From: Herpetosiphonaceae bacterium
GTDB taxonomy: Bacteria; Chloroflexota; Chloroflexia; Chloroflexales; Kallotenuaceae
DNA: 56,779 nucleotides
Assembly: GCA_013821605.1 (NCBI GenBank)
Contig: JACDGP010000018.1
Span: 1-56,779, forward strand
Reading direction: 5' to 3'
This document shows, in pieces, positions 31,898 through 50,237 of the stretch (position 1 is its first letter; every line of letters starts with the position of its first letter). A model generated the notes under the pieces. The model was not told the origin of the DNA and searched no databases. It worked only from the letters and a program-made list of their open reading frames with translations. A program made the position numbers and the translations under genes.

Positions 31898-32112
31898 TTG
31901 CTTTAGCTATCGTCGCGTTTACGCATCAATCACTGTGAGACGTCCTCGGCGGAGACCGTTGCATCGAACTCCTGATGTAACGACAGCACATCTTCTGGCC
32001 TCCTCATTCCTTGAACCTAACACTTTTAACACACTTTCAGCAAACGGATGCCACATCCGCTACTCATACTAACCTTAAGTTTCAAGGTCGTGGTGTAGAC
32101 GGGGAGGCAACA

Positions 32113-33090
32113 ATGAATACTCGCGCTCGGCTTAATCTTCGTGGCATCGGCTGGTTTCTCGCAATCGCTTTCGGATTGGCCTGGATACTCACCTTGCCCA
32201 TGTATCTCGACGGACGAGGGGTGAGTTCGCCCTGGGTACAGCTCATTCTATTCATCAACTTCACACCCGCCATCGCTACCTTGATCGTTACGCGCTGGAT
32301 TAGCCCGTTGGCACACGTCCGGCGGTCTACCGGCTTGCGGTGGGGAGCGAAGGGCAGTTACTGGGGGTGGTACTGGCTCTTCGGCTGGCTAGGGCTGACC
32401 ATCCTGGTCATGGTCGCACCGTTCGTGGGGGCACTCTTTGGCCACTATCCGCTCGATCTCCAGCACTTTTCTGGCTACCGTGCAGCGCTCGAAAGTACGG
32501 CGCAGGGTCAACAAACACTGAGCCGCTGGCCACTTGAGACGATCGTGCAGTTCACTATGTTGAGCTTGCCACTTGTGACACTGTTGATTAGCCCTGTCAA
32601 TTTTGGCGAAGAATGGGGCTGGCGCGGGTACTTGCTGCCGCAGTTGCTACCACTCGGCCAGTGGCCGGCACTGCTGATCAGTGGGGCTATTTGGGGACTG
32701 TGGCATGCCCCACTGATTCTGCTGGGCTTGAATTACCCACAGCACCCAATCCTGGGCGTCGGGTTGATGGTGATCTTCTGTACAATCATAGGAATTATCC
32801 TGGGTTGGCTACGTCTAGCGACCGGCAGCGTCTGGCCTGCGGTACTCGGTCACGCGGGGATTGATGCGACCAGCCAGTTCGGCGCGATACTGATGCTTAC
32901 TCAGGTTGGCGTTACCTATGATACGGCACAAGTAACTATTCTGGGCTGGACAGGCTGGCTTCTGCCGCTGCTCTTCATCGTCTGCTTGGTAGTCACGCGT
33001 CGATTGCCTGTGCACAACTCGCCGGATACGCCGTCCGGCACCATTTCAATGCCGCTCCCACTGGTAGCATCGAGGCAGGCCAGTGCGTAG
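32113..33090 (+). CDS. CPBP family intramembrane glutamic protease (CAAX protease-like)
   Basis: 325 residues from ATG 32113, with GGGGAGG 5 bases upstream. Eight or so membrane segments. The ABI/CPBP motifs are in order: EEWGWRGYLL (motif 1, catalytic Glu pair and Arg), FxxxH-like AIWGLWHAP (motif 2) and GHAGID (motif 3). Proteins of this family cleave prenylated or membrane peptides or protect from bacteriocins. The C-terminal tail (RLPVHNSPDTPSGT) is repeated in degraded form at 34217-34318. The 215 bases upstream hold only a 6-bp hairpin and no gene. Confidence 0.9.
   Translation: MNTRARLNLRGIGWFLAIAFGLAWILTLPMYLDGRGVSSPWVQLILFINFTPAIATLIVTRWISPLAHVRRSTGLRWGAKGSYWGWYWLFGWLGLTILVMVAPFVGALFGHYPLDLQHFSGYRAALESTAQGQQTLSRWPLETIVQFTMLSLPLVTLLISPVNFGEEWGWRGYLLPQLLPLGQWPALLISGAIWGLWHAPLILLGLNYPQHPILGVGLMVIFCTIIGIILGWLRLATGSVWPAVLGHAGIDATSQFGAILMLTQVGVTYDTAQVTILGWTGWLLPLLFIVCLVVTRRLPVHNSPDTPSGTISMPLPLVASRQASA
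32983..33085 (+). repeat. Direct repeat, copy A: 3' end of the CPBP protease gene
   Basis: This coding segment is matched by 34217-34318. Within the best stretch, 33000-33041 against 34234-34275, I count 36 of 42 identical bases, and the match continues with substitutions and one gap to 33085. Copy A is the intact gene tail. Confidence 0.75.
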
Positions 33091-34224: not shown

Positions 34225-34318
34225 CCGTGTGCATCGATTGCCCCTGCGCAACTCGCCTGATACTCAGTCCGGCACGAGCTTAATCCTGACGCCGCAGTAG
34301 CCTCGAATCAGGCCAATG
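34217..34318 (+). pseudogene. Relic of a second CPBP protease gene 3' end (direct repeat, copy B)
   Basis: In one frame the segment encodes RLPLRNSPDTQSGT and then runs to a TAG at 34298, against RLPVHNSPDTPSGT in the intact protease that ends at 33090. The DNA match extends over about 100 bases including non-conserved positions, so it is a decayed copy and not chance. Nothing of the rest of the gene is seen upstream; the dienelactone hydrolase gene abuts it. It lies just before the ABC transporter gene at 34364. Confidence 0.75.
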
Positions 34319-34363
34319 GCTCTGCATCCCGCTCCTATCATCTTCAAGCAGGAGAACATAGGT

Positions 34364-35140
34364 ATGATGCACAGTGAAGCAATGCTGATCATATATGTCC
34401 ATGATCTCCATACATCATATGGTGCCGTGGAGGCTGTCAAAGGTGTCTCCTTTGAGGTGCTCAAAGGGGAAGTCTTTGGCCTGCTCGGACCGAATGGGGC
34501 CGGAAAGACCACCATCTTGGAGACGATCGAAGGCTTGCGCCCGCTGCAACGTGGCTCCGTGCTGGTCAATGGCATCGACGTCGCCGCCGATCCGGTACGC
34601 GTGCACCGGCTGATCGGCGTGCAACTGCAGCACGTTGCATTTTTCGACCGGCTGACCCTGGAAGAGCTGCTCCACCTGTTCGGTGAGCTCTACGGCACGC
34701 GCACCGACCCTACCACTTTGCTCACCCAGGTCGGCCTGCTGAAGCAGCGCAAGATGTATGTGAAAAACCTTTCAGGGGGCCAACGCCAGCGGTTCAGTAT
34801 TGCGGCTGCGCTGGTGAACGATCCCGTCGTCGTCTTTTTGGACGAGCCTACCAGTGGGCTGGACCCCCAGGCGCGTCACAGTGTGTGGGAGCTGGTACGC
34901 GCTGCGAAACGGCGTGGTCAGGCAGTCGTGCTGACAACGCATTATATCGAAGAGGCTGAGGCACTTTGTGATCGGGTCGCGATCATAGATGAAGGCCGTA
35001 TCGTAGCGCTGGATACACCAGCGGTATTGATCCACCGGTTACTTGAGACAGGCTTTAAGCGCGAGGTCGAGATAGCACCAGCGACGCTGGAAGATGTGTT
35101 CCTGCATCTCACGGGTCGTACGCTGAGGGAGGACGTATGA
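34364..35140 (+). CDS. ABC transporter ATP-binding protein
   Basis: 258 residues from ATG 34364 (GGAG 9 bases upstream; ATG 34367 and one further down are alternatives). Walker A GPNGAGKTT, signature LSGGQRQR, Walker B VVFLDEPTSGLD and the H-loop LTTHYIEEAE are intact, so an active ATPase of the ABC-2/DRA exporter class is expected. Translationally coupled to the permease by an ATGA overlap at 35137-35140. Next to a two-component system, which often controls such exporters of peptides or antibiotics. Confidence 0.94.
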   Translation: MMHSEAMLIIYVHDLHTSYGAVEAVKGVSFEVLKGEVFGLLGPNGAGKTTILETIEGLRPLQRGSVLVNGIDVAADPVRVHRLIGVQLQHVAFFDRLTLEELLHLFGELYGTRTDPTTLLTQVGLLKQRKMYVKNLSGGQRQRFSIAAALVNDPVVVFLDEPTSGLDPQARHSVWELVRAAKRRGQAVVLTTHYIEEAEALCDRVAIIDEGRIVALDTPAVLIHRLLETGFKREVEIAPATLEDVFLHLTGRTLREDV

Positions 35141-36213
35141 ACTTCAGCATGCGAGCATACCGTGCCCTGACCGTCGCCAACCTCCTAACGTACTGGCGAA
35201 ATCCACTGGCAACGTCAGGATTGTTTATTGGCCTGGTCTTAATGCTGGGCGGTGTCAGATTCATTGATGGCTCCCACCAGCAGCGCTTCAACGTCAGCCT
35301 CAGCAACCATGCAACCACACAGGCTGCCGCCGAGCTGATCAAGGCGCTTAAGGAAGAGCCAACACTGGTCGTGACCGAGGCCTCTGACGATGATGGTCGC
35401 CAGCGCATACAGAACGGCAAGGCCGACCTGCAACTTGTGATTCCAGTCGCCTTCGGCACCAGCGGGAGTGATGGCCATCCCCGACCGTCTGCCGTGGATG
35501 TTACGTATAAGGCAGGCGGAGCAGGGCAGCAGACGTTGGCGTTGGCCGCAGCCGCCGTCGATCAGGTTGATCGCCAACTGCAGGGAGCACCGCAACTCTT
35601 TGCGGTGCAGTCGCATGTCCTCAATGCGGATGCCAGTATTATCGATATCTTTCTGCCCGGATTGCTGGGCTTCAATCTTGTCAATAGTGGTCTGCTGGTT
35701 GCGGCCGGGATCTTCGCAGGCTATCGCTCCACAGGCGTGCTACGGCGGATCCAGGCGACGGGCACAGCACCCATTAATCTGGTGCTGGCGCATGCTACCT
35801 CAAACCTCCTGTTAAGCATGGTGCAGGCGGTCCTGATGATCTTGATTGCGATGGTGCTTTTCACCCTACGGCTCAATATCTTCGCGCTCCTGGCGGTAAG
35901 TCTGCTGGGCTATCTCGTTTTTCTGGCGTTAGGGTTTGCTATTAGCGGGTGGATTCGTGATGCGCAGCGGGCGCAGGCGATGGCCGCCGCGATTGGGTTT
36001 CCGTTGATCTTCATCGGGCTGTTTCCACCAGACGTCTTGCCGGCCGCCGCGCGTCCGTTCATTAGCCGCTTACCGATCGCTTTGGTCACCTATAGCATGC
36101 GTCAGATCGTTGATGGTGGAGGGTTATGGACGGTCCGCCTAGACTTGTTGGGCCTCGCCATCTGGGCCGTCATTCTGTTAGTTGGCGCCGGACGGATGTT
36201 TCGGTGGGACTAG
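35137..36213 (+). CDS. ABC-2 type transporter permease
   Basis: 358 residues. One N-terminal membrane segment (SGLFIGLVLMLGGV), a large extracellular loop of about 170 residues (up to DIFLPGLLGFN), then five membrane segments, including ISGWIRDAQRAQAMAAAIGFPLIF near the end. This is the ABC2_membrane_3 layout. Overlaps the ATPase gene by 4 bases, so they form one export complex. Substrate unknown. Confidence 0.88.
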   Translation: MNFSMRAYRALTVANLLTYWRNPLATSGLFIGLVLMLGGVRFIDGSHQQRFNVSLSNHATTQAAAELIKALKEEPTLVVTEASDDDGRQRIQNGKADLQLVIPVAFGTSGSDGHPRPSAVDVTYKAGGAGQQTLALAAAAVDQVDRQLQGAPQLFAVQSHVLNADASIIDIFLPGLLGFNLVNSGLLVAAGIFAGYRSTGVLRRIQATGTAPINLVLAHATSNLLLSMVQAVLMILIAMVLFTLRLNIFALLAVSLLGYLVFLALGFAISGWIRDAQRAQAMAAAIGFPLIFIGLFPPDVLPAAARPFISRLPIALVTYSMRQIVDGGGLWTVRLDLLGLAIWAVILLVGAGRMFRWD

Positions 36214-36262
36214 GGCGTGCATGGTAGCGTATGATTGGTGCGCGCGTGAGGAGCATGGATAT

Positions 36263-36943
36263 ATGGCGTTGATCGTTGTGGTCGAGGACGAGCACGAGCT
36301 TGCTGCGCTGCTGAAACGCCAACTGGAGGGCGAAGGCCATCAGGTGGTCGTAGCTGGTGACGGGCAGACGGCGCTGATCCTGGCAGGGCAGAGATAACCT
36401 GATCTGGTCGTTCTGGATTGGATGTTGCCGGAGCTTGATGGGCTGGCTGTTTGCAGGCGCTTGCGCCAGCAGTCAAGCGTACCAATCCTGATGCTCACGG
36501 CCAAAGCGGAGGAGGCCGATCTGGTGCTGGGATTAGAAGTTGGGGCTGACGATTACTTGACCAAACCCTTTAGCCTGCGCGAACTCCTCGCCCGCGTCCG
36601 TGCGCTCCTACGTCGGGTCGAACTATTGCGGCAGGTGGACGGAGCAGACGAAGGACCAATTCGCCTGGGACGGCTCGCGCTCGATCCACTGCTACGGCGT
36701 GTCGAGGTCGACCAAGTGGCGGTCGACCTCACGGTTAAAGAATATGACGTGCTGTATCTGCTGGCTCGGCATCCGGGCCGCAGTTTTAGCCGGGCCTATT
36801 TGCTTGACCGCATCTGGGGCAGTGACTATGTGGGCGGTGAGCGGGCAGTGGATACGCATGTCGTGCACCTGCGGCGCAAGCTAGGAGACATCGGTGGACA
36901 GATCACGACGATATGGGGCGTGGGCTATCGCCTGGAAAGCTAG
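36263..36943 (+). pseudogene. OmpR-family response regulator interrupted by an in-frame TAA
   Basis: Codons 1-44 (from ATG 36263, after GAGGAG) give the receiver start ALIVVVEDEHELAALL. Codon 45 is TAA (36395-36397) and the same frame continues with PDLVVLDWMLPELDG, holding phosphoacceptor Asp52, then Lys101 in LTKPF and a winged-helix domain (SFSRAYLLDRIWG, RAVDTHVVHLRRKLG) to 36943. The rest is 226 codons, the family's normal length, with no other lesion. An ATG at 36422 could restart translation, but that product would lack Asp52. Pseudogene, sequencing error and stop readthrough are all possible. Overlaps the kinase gene. Confidence 0.85.
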
Positions 36944-38930
36944 ACTAACCGCGCGTGTCGGCTTTTGGCGTGCACTGGTCGAGATGCTCCTGGCAGGGTT
37001 TGTGCTGTTCTTGTTGTACTGGCCGCTGGCAACGTTGTGGGGCCCAACCTGGGCCGAGTTATTAAGCTACGTGTGGTGGGCCTTCTATGCATACGCGGCC
37101 TGGCGGCTAGCACCGGGTGGTGCTTCCCACGGTCTGCTCTACCGCATCGCCCGTATCTTGCTTTGGGGCATGCTCTTCGGCATCATTGGCGCGACACAGG
37201 GATATTTGTTTCTCAAGCTTCACCCGTTGCCGGGCCTCTACTTTGGCTTCAGGCTCGAAGATATTCCCTACCCGCAGTACCTCTTGAGTTCAGCACTGAA
37301 CACAATCAGCCCGTTCCTGTTGACCCGCACACTGATCAGCTTATGGGCAGCAGGACGCCGCCGTCTCCGCTGGCGCCTCACGTACTCGTACGTATTGGTG
37401 GCACTAATCGCGACGCTGCTGATCACACCCGCGCAGAGTCTGTATCTGGCCGTCGCCAGTCTGGCTGTTTCACCACCGGTGCTCGCACCGGGAGTGGCCG
37501 CTCAACGCATCGTCACGGCGATCAGTCCATTGCTTGCCCAAGGTGCTTCGGATGAGCAGGTGGCTGGTGTGCTGGCAGGCCTACTTGATGGCACGGTGCG
37601 CGTGCCACTCCAAGCCGAGCAGCCTGTCGTGGAGGATGCAGCAGCAGTTGGCTTCAACGGAGTGCGCCAGATTGTCGTGCTACGACCGGGAGGTATCGTG
37701 CTGACCAGTGCCGGCCAGCAGCGCTTGCAACCGGGCGCGCCGTTGCCCGCAGCCGAGGCGACCCGCATGGCACCCCTGCTCGCGCAGCTCCATGTAGGTG
37801 GTTGCATCAGTGGCCGGCCAGCCAGCGGGTCGGTGGCCGATAGCGCCGCCTGCAACATTGCTGGCACGGACGGGCGGCAAGGCGTGATCCTGCTGGTCGA
37901 AAGCCGCATCGACAGCGTCGTGCAAGCAGAAGCCGACCTCAACCGGATCCTGACGCTGGTCATTATGAACACAGCGACGACGTTTTCGCTGCTACTCGTC
38001 GCGCTGCTGGGTATCCTGGTGGTAGCCGGTGGTGGTGGCTACCTGCTGGCGCGCCGTCTGACACAACGATTAGAAAGCCTCGCCCTAGGCACTGCGGAAC
38101 TCGCGGCGGGACAGTTTGGGCGCAGGATCACCATCGATTCGGGAGATGAGATTGGGCAGCTCGGCAGCGACTTCAATAGCATGGCGGCTCGCCTGCAGGA
38201 GCGTGAGGTGGCCCTCACCATCGAACGTGATCGAGCTGAGCGTGCACTCGCGGCGAACCGCCAACTGGTCGCAAACGTTTCACACGAACTACGCACACCA
38301 TTGACGACGCTGCGCGGCTACCTGGAAGCACTCGAACAGGAGCACAGCACAGCCATACTGGCGCATGATCTTGCCGTGATGCAAGGTGAGGTAGGACGGC
38401 TGACCGCACTGATTGAAGATTTGTTTACGCTGGCGCGCGCGGAAGCACACCAATTACCACTCACGCTCGAAGCGGTGGATGGGGGTGAACTCGTGCGGGA
38501 GTTGGCCCAAACGCTCGCACCGCTCGCCCGACGCGAACGGCAAATCGAACTTGTCACCGCCATTCCACCGGACCTGCCCCATGTCCGGGCCGACCGAGCC
38601 CGCCTGGGCCAGGTGGTGCTCAATTTGCTACAGAATGCCCTGAGTTACACGCCGCCGGGAGGGATTATCGCTGTCGAGGGAAGTGCGGGCGATGGCATGG
38701 TGACCCTGGTGGTAGACGATACCGGGATAGGCATCCCACCAGAAGAGTTGCAGCGTGTCTTCGAGCGCTTCTACCGCAGTGATAGCTCACGGGCGCGCGA
38801 CAGTGGCGGCGCGGGGATCGGGCTGGCGCTGGTGCAAGAGCTTGTGATCGCGATGGGTGGCAGTGTTGCCGCACAAAGTACACTGGGGCGCGGCAGCCGC
38901 TTCAGCATCGTCCTGCCGGAGATGCTGTAA
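36894..38930 (+). CDS. Sensor histidine kinase
   Basis: 678 residues from GTG 36894, overlapping the regulator by 50 bases; a later ATG at 36984 would still keep the membrane part. Seven or so membrane segments in the first 190 residues, an extracellular domain (about 200-350), another membrane segment, HAMP (about 385-437, RRLTQRLESLALGTAEL), HisKA with His464 in NVSHELRTPL and a HATPase (LLQNALSYTPPGG, VDDTGIGIPPEELQRVFERFYR, GAGIGLALVQ). Intact, unlike its partner. Should autophosphorylate in response to an extracellular signal; target likely the ABC exporter next to it. Confidence 0.94.
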   Translation: MDRSRRYGAWAIAWKARLTARVGFWRALVEMLLAGFVLFLLYWPLATLWGPTWAELLSYVWWAFYAYAAWRLAPGGASHGLLYRIARILLWGMLFGIIGATQGYLFLKLHPLPGLYFGFRLEDIPYPQYLLSSALNTISPFLLTRTLISLWAAGRRRLRWRLTYSYVLVALIATLLITPAQSLYLAVASLAVSPPVLAPGVAAQRIVTAISPLLAQGASDEQVAGVLAGLLDGTVRVPLQAEQPVVEDAAAVGFNGVRQIVVLRPGGIVLTSAGQQRLQPGAPLPAAEATRMAPLLAQLHVGGCISGRPASGSVADSAACNIAGTDGRQGVILLVESRIDSVVQAEADLNRILTLVIMNTATTFSLLLVALLGILVVAGGGGYLLARRLTQRLESLALGTAELAAGQFGRRITIDSGDEIGQLGSDFNSMAARLQEREVALTIERDRAERALAANRQLVANVSHELRTPLTTLRGYLEALEQEHSTAILAHDLAVMQGEVGRLTALIEDLFTLARAEAHQLPLTLEAVDGGELVRELAQTLAPLARRERQIELVTAIPPDLPHVRADRARLGQVVLNLLQNALSYTPPGGIIAVEGSAGDGMVTLVVDDTGIGIPPEELQRVFERFYRSDSSRARDSGGAGIGLALVQELVIAMGGSVAAQSTLGRGSRFSIVLPEML

Positions 38931-48470: not shown

Positions 48471-50237
48471 ATGCGCAGGTTAGTAGGCACAGTGGGCATC
48501 AGCGGTAGTGGGTTGCTGCTCATAGCTGGCATGTTCCAAAAGAGCGACGCACTCTGGCTAGCTGCGCTGTGGGCGAGTATCCTGCTGCTAGGGATCGGCG
48601 TGAGTGCCACGTTGCAAGCGCTACATGGCGGTGTGCGCCGGGGTGTGTTGAATCTGTCGTTGGTCTTCTCGCTTTTGTTTGTGATGCTGACGGCTCAGTT
48701 GCTGCGTACTCAGTTTGTGCAGGCCAATGCAATCTATAACCGGGTCGTCAAGGGTCCGAATGGTAACGTGGGCAATTCACGACCGGTAACGAGTTCTTTG
48801 AAAGTTCGGCGCGGTGGGATTTTTGATCGCCGCGGTACACAACTCGCGGGGAGCCAGTCATCGCCACAAGGCTATGCGAAGCGTACCTATCCAATAGCCC
48901 AAACTGCCGACGTGCGGGCCTTCTCGAATATCCTAGGCTACACATCGCCGAATTATGGTCAGGATGGCCTGGAGGCGCAGTGGAATGACTATTTGACTGG
49001 GGCGAAAGGGCAGCCCCTACTGGCGCTCCAAGATGACGTGCTGAATCGTCCACATCAAGGCGATGATATGCAACTTACGATCGACGCGCGCTTGCAAGCC
49101 GCCGCCTGGCAGATTTTGCAGCAAAAGGGTGGTGGCAAGCCCGGATCGGCAGTGGTGATCGAGCCTAAAACAGGAGCTATTTTGGCGCTGGTATCGACCC
49201 CCGGCTATGATCCGCAGGCATTAGCTTTTGATCCATTTCAGGAAGATTGGGATGCGATGGGCAAGCAGATCGGAGCCTACTGGAACCGGATCAACCAGGA
49301 TCCGCTCCATCCCTTGATCAACCGTCCGCTGCAAGGACAATATCCCCCCGGTTCAACTTTCAAGACTATCACGGCCATTGCTACCCTGCAACATCCGGAA
49401 GTTTTGAGCGAGCCTCGGGCAATCGATTGTCCCAATGAGTACCGGCCCGATCCGAACGCGCCGCCGGTGGTTAATGCTGTCGGCCCACCCTTGTATCCTC
49501 AGCAGCCTGCACTGGGCGATATCATCAAGCAACGGATGGGTGGCAAGCTTGATCTGGCGGGTGTGTATGCCTTTTCGTGCAATACCGCCTTTGCACAGCT
49601 AGGTGTGCGCTTGGGGAAGGATAATCTTGCCAATACATCTCGTACCCTAGGCTTCTACCCACCACGTGAAGCGGCGACGATCGATGCGAATCCAGATATG
49701 ACCGACCTGCCCACACAGTTAAGTTTGCTGGCGGTGCGCGGGACGTTTCTTGATCAGGTGAACGCGGTTGCCGATACCGCCTATGGTCAGGGGCAACTCT
49801 TTGTCACGCCGATCCAGATGGCGCTGACGGCGGCGGCAATTGCGAATGATGGACAGCTTGCGGAACCTTACCTGGTCGAAAAAATCACCGATCCGGAGAA
49901 AGCCACCGCCTACCAGCATAATCCCCGCCAACGGCAAGTAATGCCGGCGAATGTAGCTACCCAGATGCGCTCATTAATGCAGACTGAAGTGGTGACCGGC
50001 TATGGGAAAGGAGCTGCCGTTGCTGGTCAAACGGTCGGCGGTAAGTCGGGCAGCGCGCAGGCAGGCCCGGGCGATGACCCAAACAAGATTGTGCATGCCT
50101 GGTTTATTGCGATCGCGCCGGTCGAACAGCCGCGTTATGCTGTAGCTGTGATGATCGAAAATGGCCGAGATGGTGTTGTAGTAGGTGGTACGACGGCGGG
50201 TGCCGTTCTGCAAGCAGCCTTCAACCTCGAAAAATAA
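48471..50237 (+). CDS. Class B penicillin-binding protein (peptidoglycan transpeptidase)
   Basis: 588 residues. Two or three N-terminal membrane segments (LLLIAGMFQKSDALWLAALWASILLL and LSLVFSLLFVMLTAQLL parts), a dimerisation-type linker (RRGGIFDRRGTQLA) and the transpeptidase domain: SxxK in PPGSTFKTITA (Ser295), SxN in SCNTAFAQLG and KSG in GGKSGSAQ, all in order. Resembles the PbpA/FtsI-like group that pairs with FtsW/RodA; no such gene is adjacent. It cross-links peptidoglycan on the outside of the membrane and would be a beta-lactam target. Confidence 0.93.
   Translation: MRRLVGTVGISGSGLLLIAGMFQKSDALWLAALWASILLLGIGVSATLQALHGGVRRGVLNLSLVFSLLFVMLTAQLLRTQFVQANAIYNRVVKGPNGNVGNSRPVTSSLKVRRGGIFDRRGTQLAGSQSSPQGYAKRTYPIAQTADVRAFSNILGYTSPNYGQDGLEAQWNDYLTGAKGQPLLALQDDVLNRPHQGDDMQLTIDARLQAAAWQILQQKGGGKPGSAVVIEPKTGAILALVSTPGYDPQALAFDPFQEDWDAMGKQIGAYWNRINQDPLHPLINRPLQGQYPPGSTFKTITAIATLQHPEVLSEPRAIDCPNEYRPDPNAPPVVNAVGPPLYPQQPALGDIIKQRMGGKLDLAGVYAFSCNTAFAQLGVRLGKDNLANTSRTLGFYPPREAATIDANPDMTDLPTQLSLLAVRGTFLDQVNAVADTAYGQGQLFVTPIQMALTAAAIANDGQLAEPYLVEKITDPEKATAYQHNPRQRQVMPANVATQMRSLMQTEVVTGYGKGAAVAGQTVGGKSGSAQAGPGDDPNKIVHAWFIAIAPVEQPRYAVAVMIENGRDGVVVGGTTAGAVLQAAFNLEK

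Follow-up and report, generated by a model that had tools for sequence, protein, structure and literature searches.

The window analyzed here is a stretch of 56,779 nucleotides that forms part of contig C57 in a draft genome of 5.88 Mb (259 contigs). It carries a response regulator gene that is interrupted by an in-frame stop codon, preceded by the genes of an ABC-2 type exporter and followed by a sensor histidine kinase gene. The features of the locus are listed below.

34316 to 35140, forward strand: ABC transporter ATPase whose start could be either 34316 or 34364; DrrA is the nearest NCBIfam model, scoring below its cut-off
35137 to 36213, forward strand: ABC-2 type permease, intact (domain match to ABC2_membrane_3)
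36263 to 36943, forward strand: OmpR/PhoB-type response regulator gene, interrupted (translation; Response_reg and Trans_reg_C matches; intact orthologues)
36263 to 36394, forward strand: 44-residue N-terminal fragment, beta1-alpha1-beta2-alpha2 with E8/D9 (translation and domain match)
36395 to 36397, forward strand: TAA stop in frame at codon 45, within the loop between alpha2 and beta3 and ahead of the phosphoacceptor Asp52 (sense codon in 20 of 20 relatives)
36416 to 36418, forward strand: GAT codon of the predicted phosphoacceptor Asp52, 3' of the stop (LDWMLP conserved in all relatives)
36422 to 36943, forward strand: possible restart product of 173 residues from ATG codon 54, with a weak Shine-Dalgarno (SD) sequence of -3.1 kcal/mol (start-site scoring)
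36524 to 36943, forward strand: conceivable internal-start product from GTG codon 88 after GGAGGAGG, -11.8 kcal/mol
36894 to 38930, forward strand: sensor histidine kinase with HAMP, HisKA and HATPase_c domains, intact, GTG start (domains and motifs)

Translation of the regulator frame, from ATG 36263 to the TAG ending at 36943, gave 226 codons counting the internal TAA and revealed no other lesion between these positions; a whole-genome search returned a match over query residues 1-226 containing "1 TAA". The Response_reg profile was matched both before the stop (positions 1-37) and after it (positions 43-111), and a near full-length Trans_reg_C domain (PF00486; E 5e-24, profile positions 3-77 of 77) was identified 3' of the receiver. 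Translation and domain matches thus agree with the initial annotation that the frame is open over the whole OmpR-type length except for one TAA, and the position of that stop ahead of Asp52 was also confirmed. As in OmpR/PhoB-type regulators (PF00072 plus PF00486), the conceptual protein has the receiver residues E8/D9, D52 and K103 and a C-terminal winged helix, and it is encoded ahead of a sensor kinase; it differs from them in lacking a single uninterrupted frame, the stop at codon 45 preventing synthesis of the full protein. The closest NCBIfam models were PhoB, RpaB and MtrA, none of which scored above its cut-off. An open stretch of 181 codons after the stop has a chance of about 0.003 in random sequence of equal GC, but the homology of the regulator makes a chance explanation of the open frame irrelevant. 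A good ribosome-binding site (GAGGAG, -7.8 kcal/mol) precedes ATG 36263; there is an additional in-frame ATG upstream at 36221, and the orthologue alignments begin at the position of 36263. The 44-residue fragment is the sole product of normal initiation at 36263.

The kinase and exporter had been described as intact, and this was borne out: the kinase domains and motifs are complete, including the H-box SHELRTPL and the N and G boxes, and the permease matches its family model. They had also been described as overlapping the regulator gene, which is correct for the kinase (50-nt overlap, GTG start at 36894 with AGGAG 6 nt upstream) but not for the exporter, as the permease gene ends at 36213 and a gap of 49 nt separates it from the regulator ATG. 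The GTG was assigned as the kinase start because the conserved N-terminus RVGFWRAL precedes ATG 36984 and GTG 36894 is the sole start ahead of it. The ATPase and permease genes overlap each other at 35137-35140. Upstream of the exporter, an open reading frame at 32011-33090 encodes the motif EEWGWRGYLLP and by eye resembles a CPBP/CAAX-type membrane protease; an Rce1-like protein is encoded immediately upstream of the orthologous regulator-kinase pair at locus L109. A promoter and terminator scan yielded no more matches than expected by chance.

Orthologues were searched for in 82 genomes of the order. This analysis revealed nine regulator orthologues with 66-75% identity and 11 more distant ones with 53-59% identity, and no internal stop was found in any of these 20 relatives. 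Alignment at position 45, which had been proposed as a check, identified a sense codon in 20/20, mostly Gln (Gln 14, Arg 3, Ala 1, Pro 1, Lys 1), as expected for a nonsense pseudogene with intact orthologues. Orthologous regulator-kinase pairs were present in G059, G060, G062, G051, G047 and G034, with contig fragments in G075, G073 and G048. When the kinase was used as a query against the genome contigs, only distant kinases were recovered (about 30-46% identity, catalytic part), and its orthologues were therefore taken from the search of the order's genomes. Where the contig allows, the kinases of these pairs are homologous over their full length (47-51% identity in G059, G060, G062 and G051; 40-41% in G047 and G034). 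Unlike the gene in the window, the regulator is unbroken in all of these pairs.

At several orthologous loci the pair is likewise preceded by genes for an ABC ATPase and an ABC-2 permease, an arrangement that lends support to control of an exporter by the regulator-kinase system. The exporter in the window is, however, not clearly the same as that of the relatives, because the upstream ATPases share only 35-37% identity and similarity was no more than marginal for the one permease compared. The window exporter (34316-36213) is DrrA/DrrB-like, while relatives have a different ABC-2 exporter at the same place and some of them a weakly M50-peptidase-like protein; replacement of the exporter beside a conserved two-component pair is possible. 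No regulator orthologue at E 1e-66 or better was present in the five further members of the family that were compared (G001-G005), so that within the family the gene appears confined to this genus among the genomes compared. It is absent from these five and yet present in more distant genera of the order, a patchy distribution that could reflect either patchy loss or horizontal transfer.

The initial annotation also offered readthrough and phase variation as explanations of the stop. The first, genuine readthrough or recoding of TAA to give a low level of full-length regulator, would account for the preserved frame 3' of the stop. However, the stop is conserved in 0/20 relatives, the adjacent kinase gene itself terminates with TAA, and the other interrupted gene of the genome contains TAG. 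No tRNA with a TTA anticodon was identified among the 44 tRNAs classified (a few expected tRNAs were missing, and this list is not fully complete), and the RNA 3' of the stop is not unusually structured (fold z -1.45). Readthrough is thus highly improbable. The second explanation, reversible (phase-variable) silencing of the regulator, has a negligible probability: the lesion is a substitution, and the site has only short, chance-like repeats, with no simple-sequence repeat, long direct or inverted repeat or invertible element found over codon 45.

A very recent mutation had also been proposed, and the comparison with orthologues supports it: alongside the sense codon in all relatives, there is one lesion and the functional residues are conserved. 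The regulator retains 111 of the 124 positions that are invariant in the nine close orthologues, including D9, D52, K103 and the winged-helix core. The 13 departures, compared with 0-7 in each relative, may stem from a longer branch or from a degree of relaxed constraint at an earlier stage. They are not good evidence of long decay, because the direction of the relative-rate counts differed between the two outgroups used and most of the counts were not significant; no consistent rate acceleration was detected by these counts for either the regulator or the kinase. From the absence of further lesions, the neutral age of the stop was bounded at roughly 3-8% divergence, assuming that nonsense mutations make up about 3% and indels 3-10% per substitution. 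The single lesion, the retained residues and the lack of consistent acceleration together indicate that the regulator was functional until recently, and the bound on its neutral age implies that selection acted on the gene for almost its entire history.

Apart from a single base the gene looks functional throughout, and the assembly is a draft of 259 contigs. The gene could also be intact in the organism, the TAA being an error of sequencing or assembly, as the initial annotation had suggested, or a minority variant adopted in the consensus. We consider this unlikely. The TAA site is not a homopolymer, and interruptions are rare: across five Pfam families in the genome (Trans_reg_C, 31 matches; Response_reg, 96; ABC_tran, 135; HATPase_c, 72; BPD_transp_1, 84), 2/418 matches contained a stop, which argues that the genome is neither recoded nor badly sequenced and that its base-error rate is not high. 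One of the two is the window regulator and the other is a kinase remnant on contig C38 (L110, 23406-24391, reverse strand), which has HisKA and HATPase domains with an in-frame TAG and no N-terminal sensor part. This remnant adjoins open reading frames resembling transposase genes of the IS200/IS605 type and has the appearance of an older, transposon-truncated pseudogene of an ordinary kind. A codon-usage scan of the window for further interrupted frames flagged only an apparently normal gene boundary at 50235; its threshold missed the regulator itself, and the scan is therefore insensitive.

The near full-length winged helix 3' of the stop raises a further alternative, in which restart at ATG 36422 or GTG 36524 yields a functional, phosphorylation-independent regulator that binds DNA constitutively; the isolated effector domain of PhoB binds DNA in this way. 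The initial annotation had named a single restart ATG beyond the stop. ATG 36422 is indeed the first, but it is not the only one, as codon 77 is also ATG; other in-frame start candidates are TTG codons 55, 67 and 99 and GTG codon 88. Within window positions 36500-36526, the last of these lies eight bases after the strong SD-like sequence GGAGGAGG, the strongest such site among the window and the ten relatives compared, and its product would consist of the end of the receiver and the DNA-binding domain. This motif stems, however, from GAG GAG codons, which encode residues that are commonly retained, and relatives have weaker versions of it, so chance is the better reading of the site; the site at ATG 36422 is weak and the partial receiver in the product would probably misfold. 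The earlier conclusion that a restart product could not be phosphorylated holds for any start, and for a stronger reason than the position of Asp52: beta1-alpha1-beta2-alpha2 is missing from every such product, and with it the acidic pair E8/D9, which receivers require for Mg2+ binding. A functional restart regulator is very unlikely. The related proposal of a rewired system, in which the nonsense allele releases a free phosphorylation-independent DNA-binding fragment from GTG 36524 or ATG 36422, is likewise very unlikely; if true, it would uncouple exporter expression from the sensor.

Taken together, these data are best explained by a recent loss-of-function point mutation that has produced a young nonsense pseudogene and orphaned its kinase (probability about 0.75). 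A functional OmpR/PhoB-type regulator paired with the downstream kinase would have been interrupted when the substitution of one base turned codon 45 into a stop; the simplest precursor is a glutamine codon, as found in most relatives. Translation from 36263 would then halt after 44 residues, ahead of the phosphoacceptor Asp and the DNA-binding domain, and for this reason the full regulator would not be made. The kinase could still be made from the ribosome-binding site that it has within the regulator gene, possibly at a level reduced by polarity across about 500 untranslated bases, and would be left without its cognate partner. We infer that function was lost and that phospho-dependent control would be lost at the target, which is probably the neighbouring ABC-2 exporter, the operon of the system itself, or both.

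Like other single-nonsense bacterial pseudogenes, the regulator gene has one point lesion, an otherwise conserved frame and intact orthologues, and it has no feature that distinguishes it from them. Literature searches returned nothing specific. The gene is most likely an ordinary case rather than a new mechanism, and its significance outside annotation is small. We suggest that it be annotated as a probable pseudogene of recent origin whose kinase is an orphan, and that models of the regulation of the neighbouring exporter in this strain not assume a normal two-component circuit until the base has been checked.
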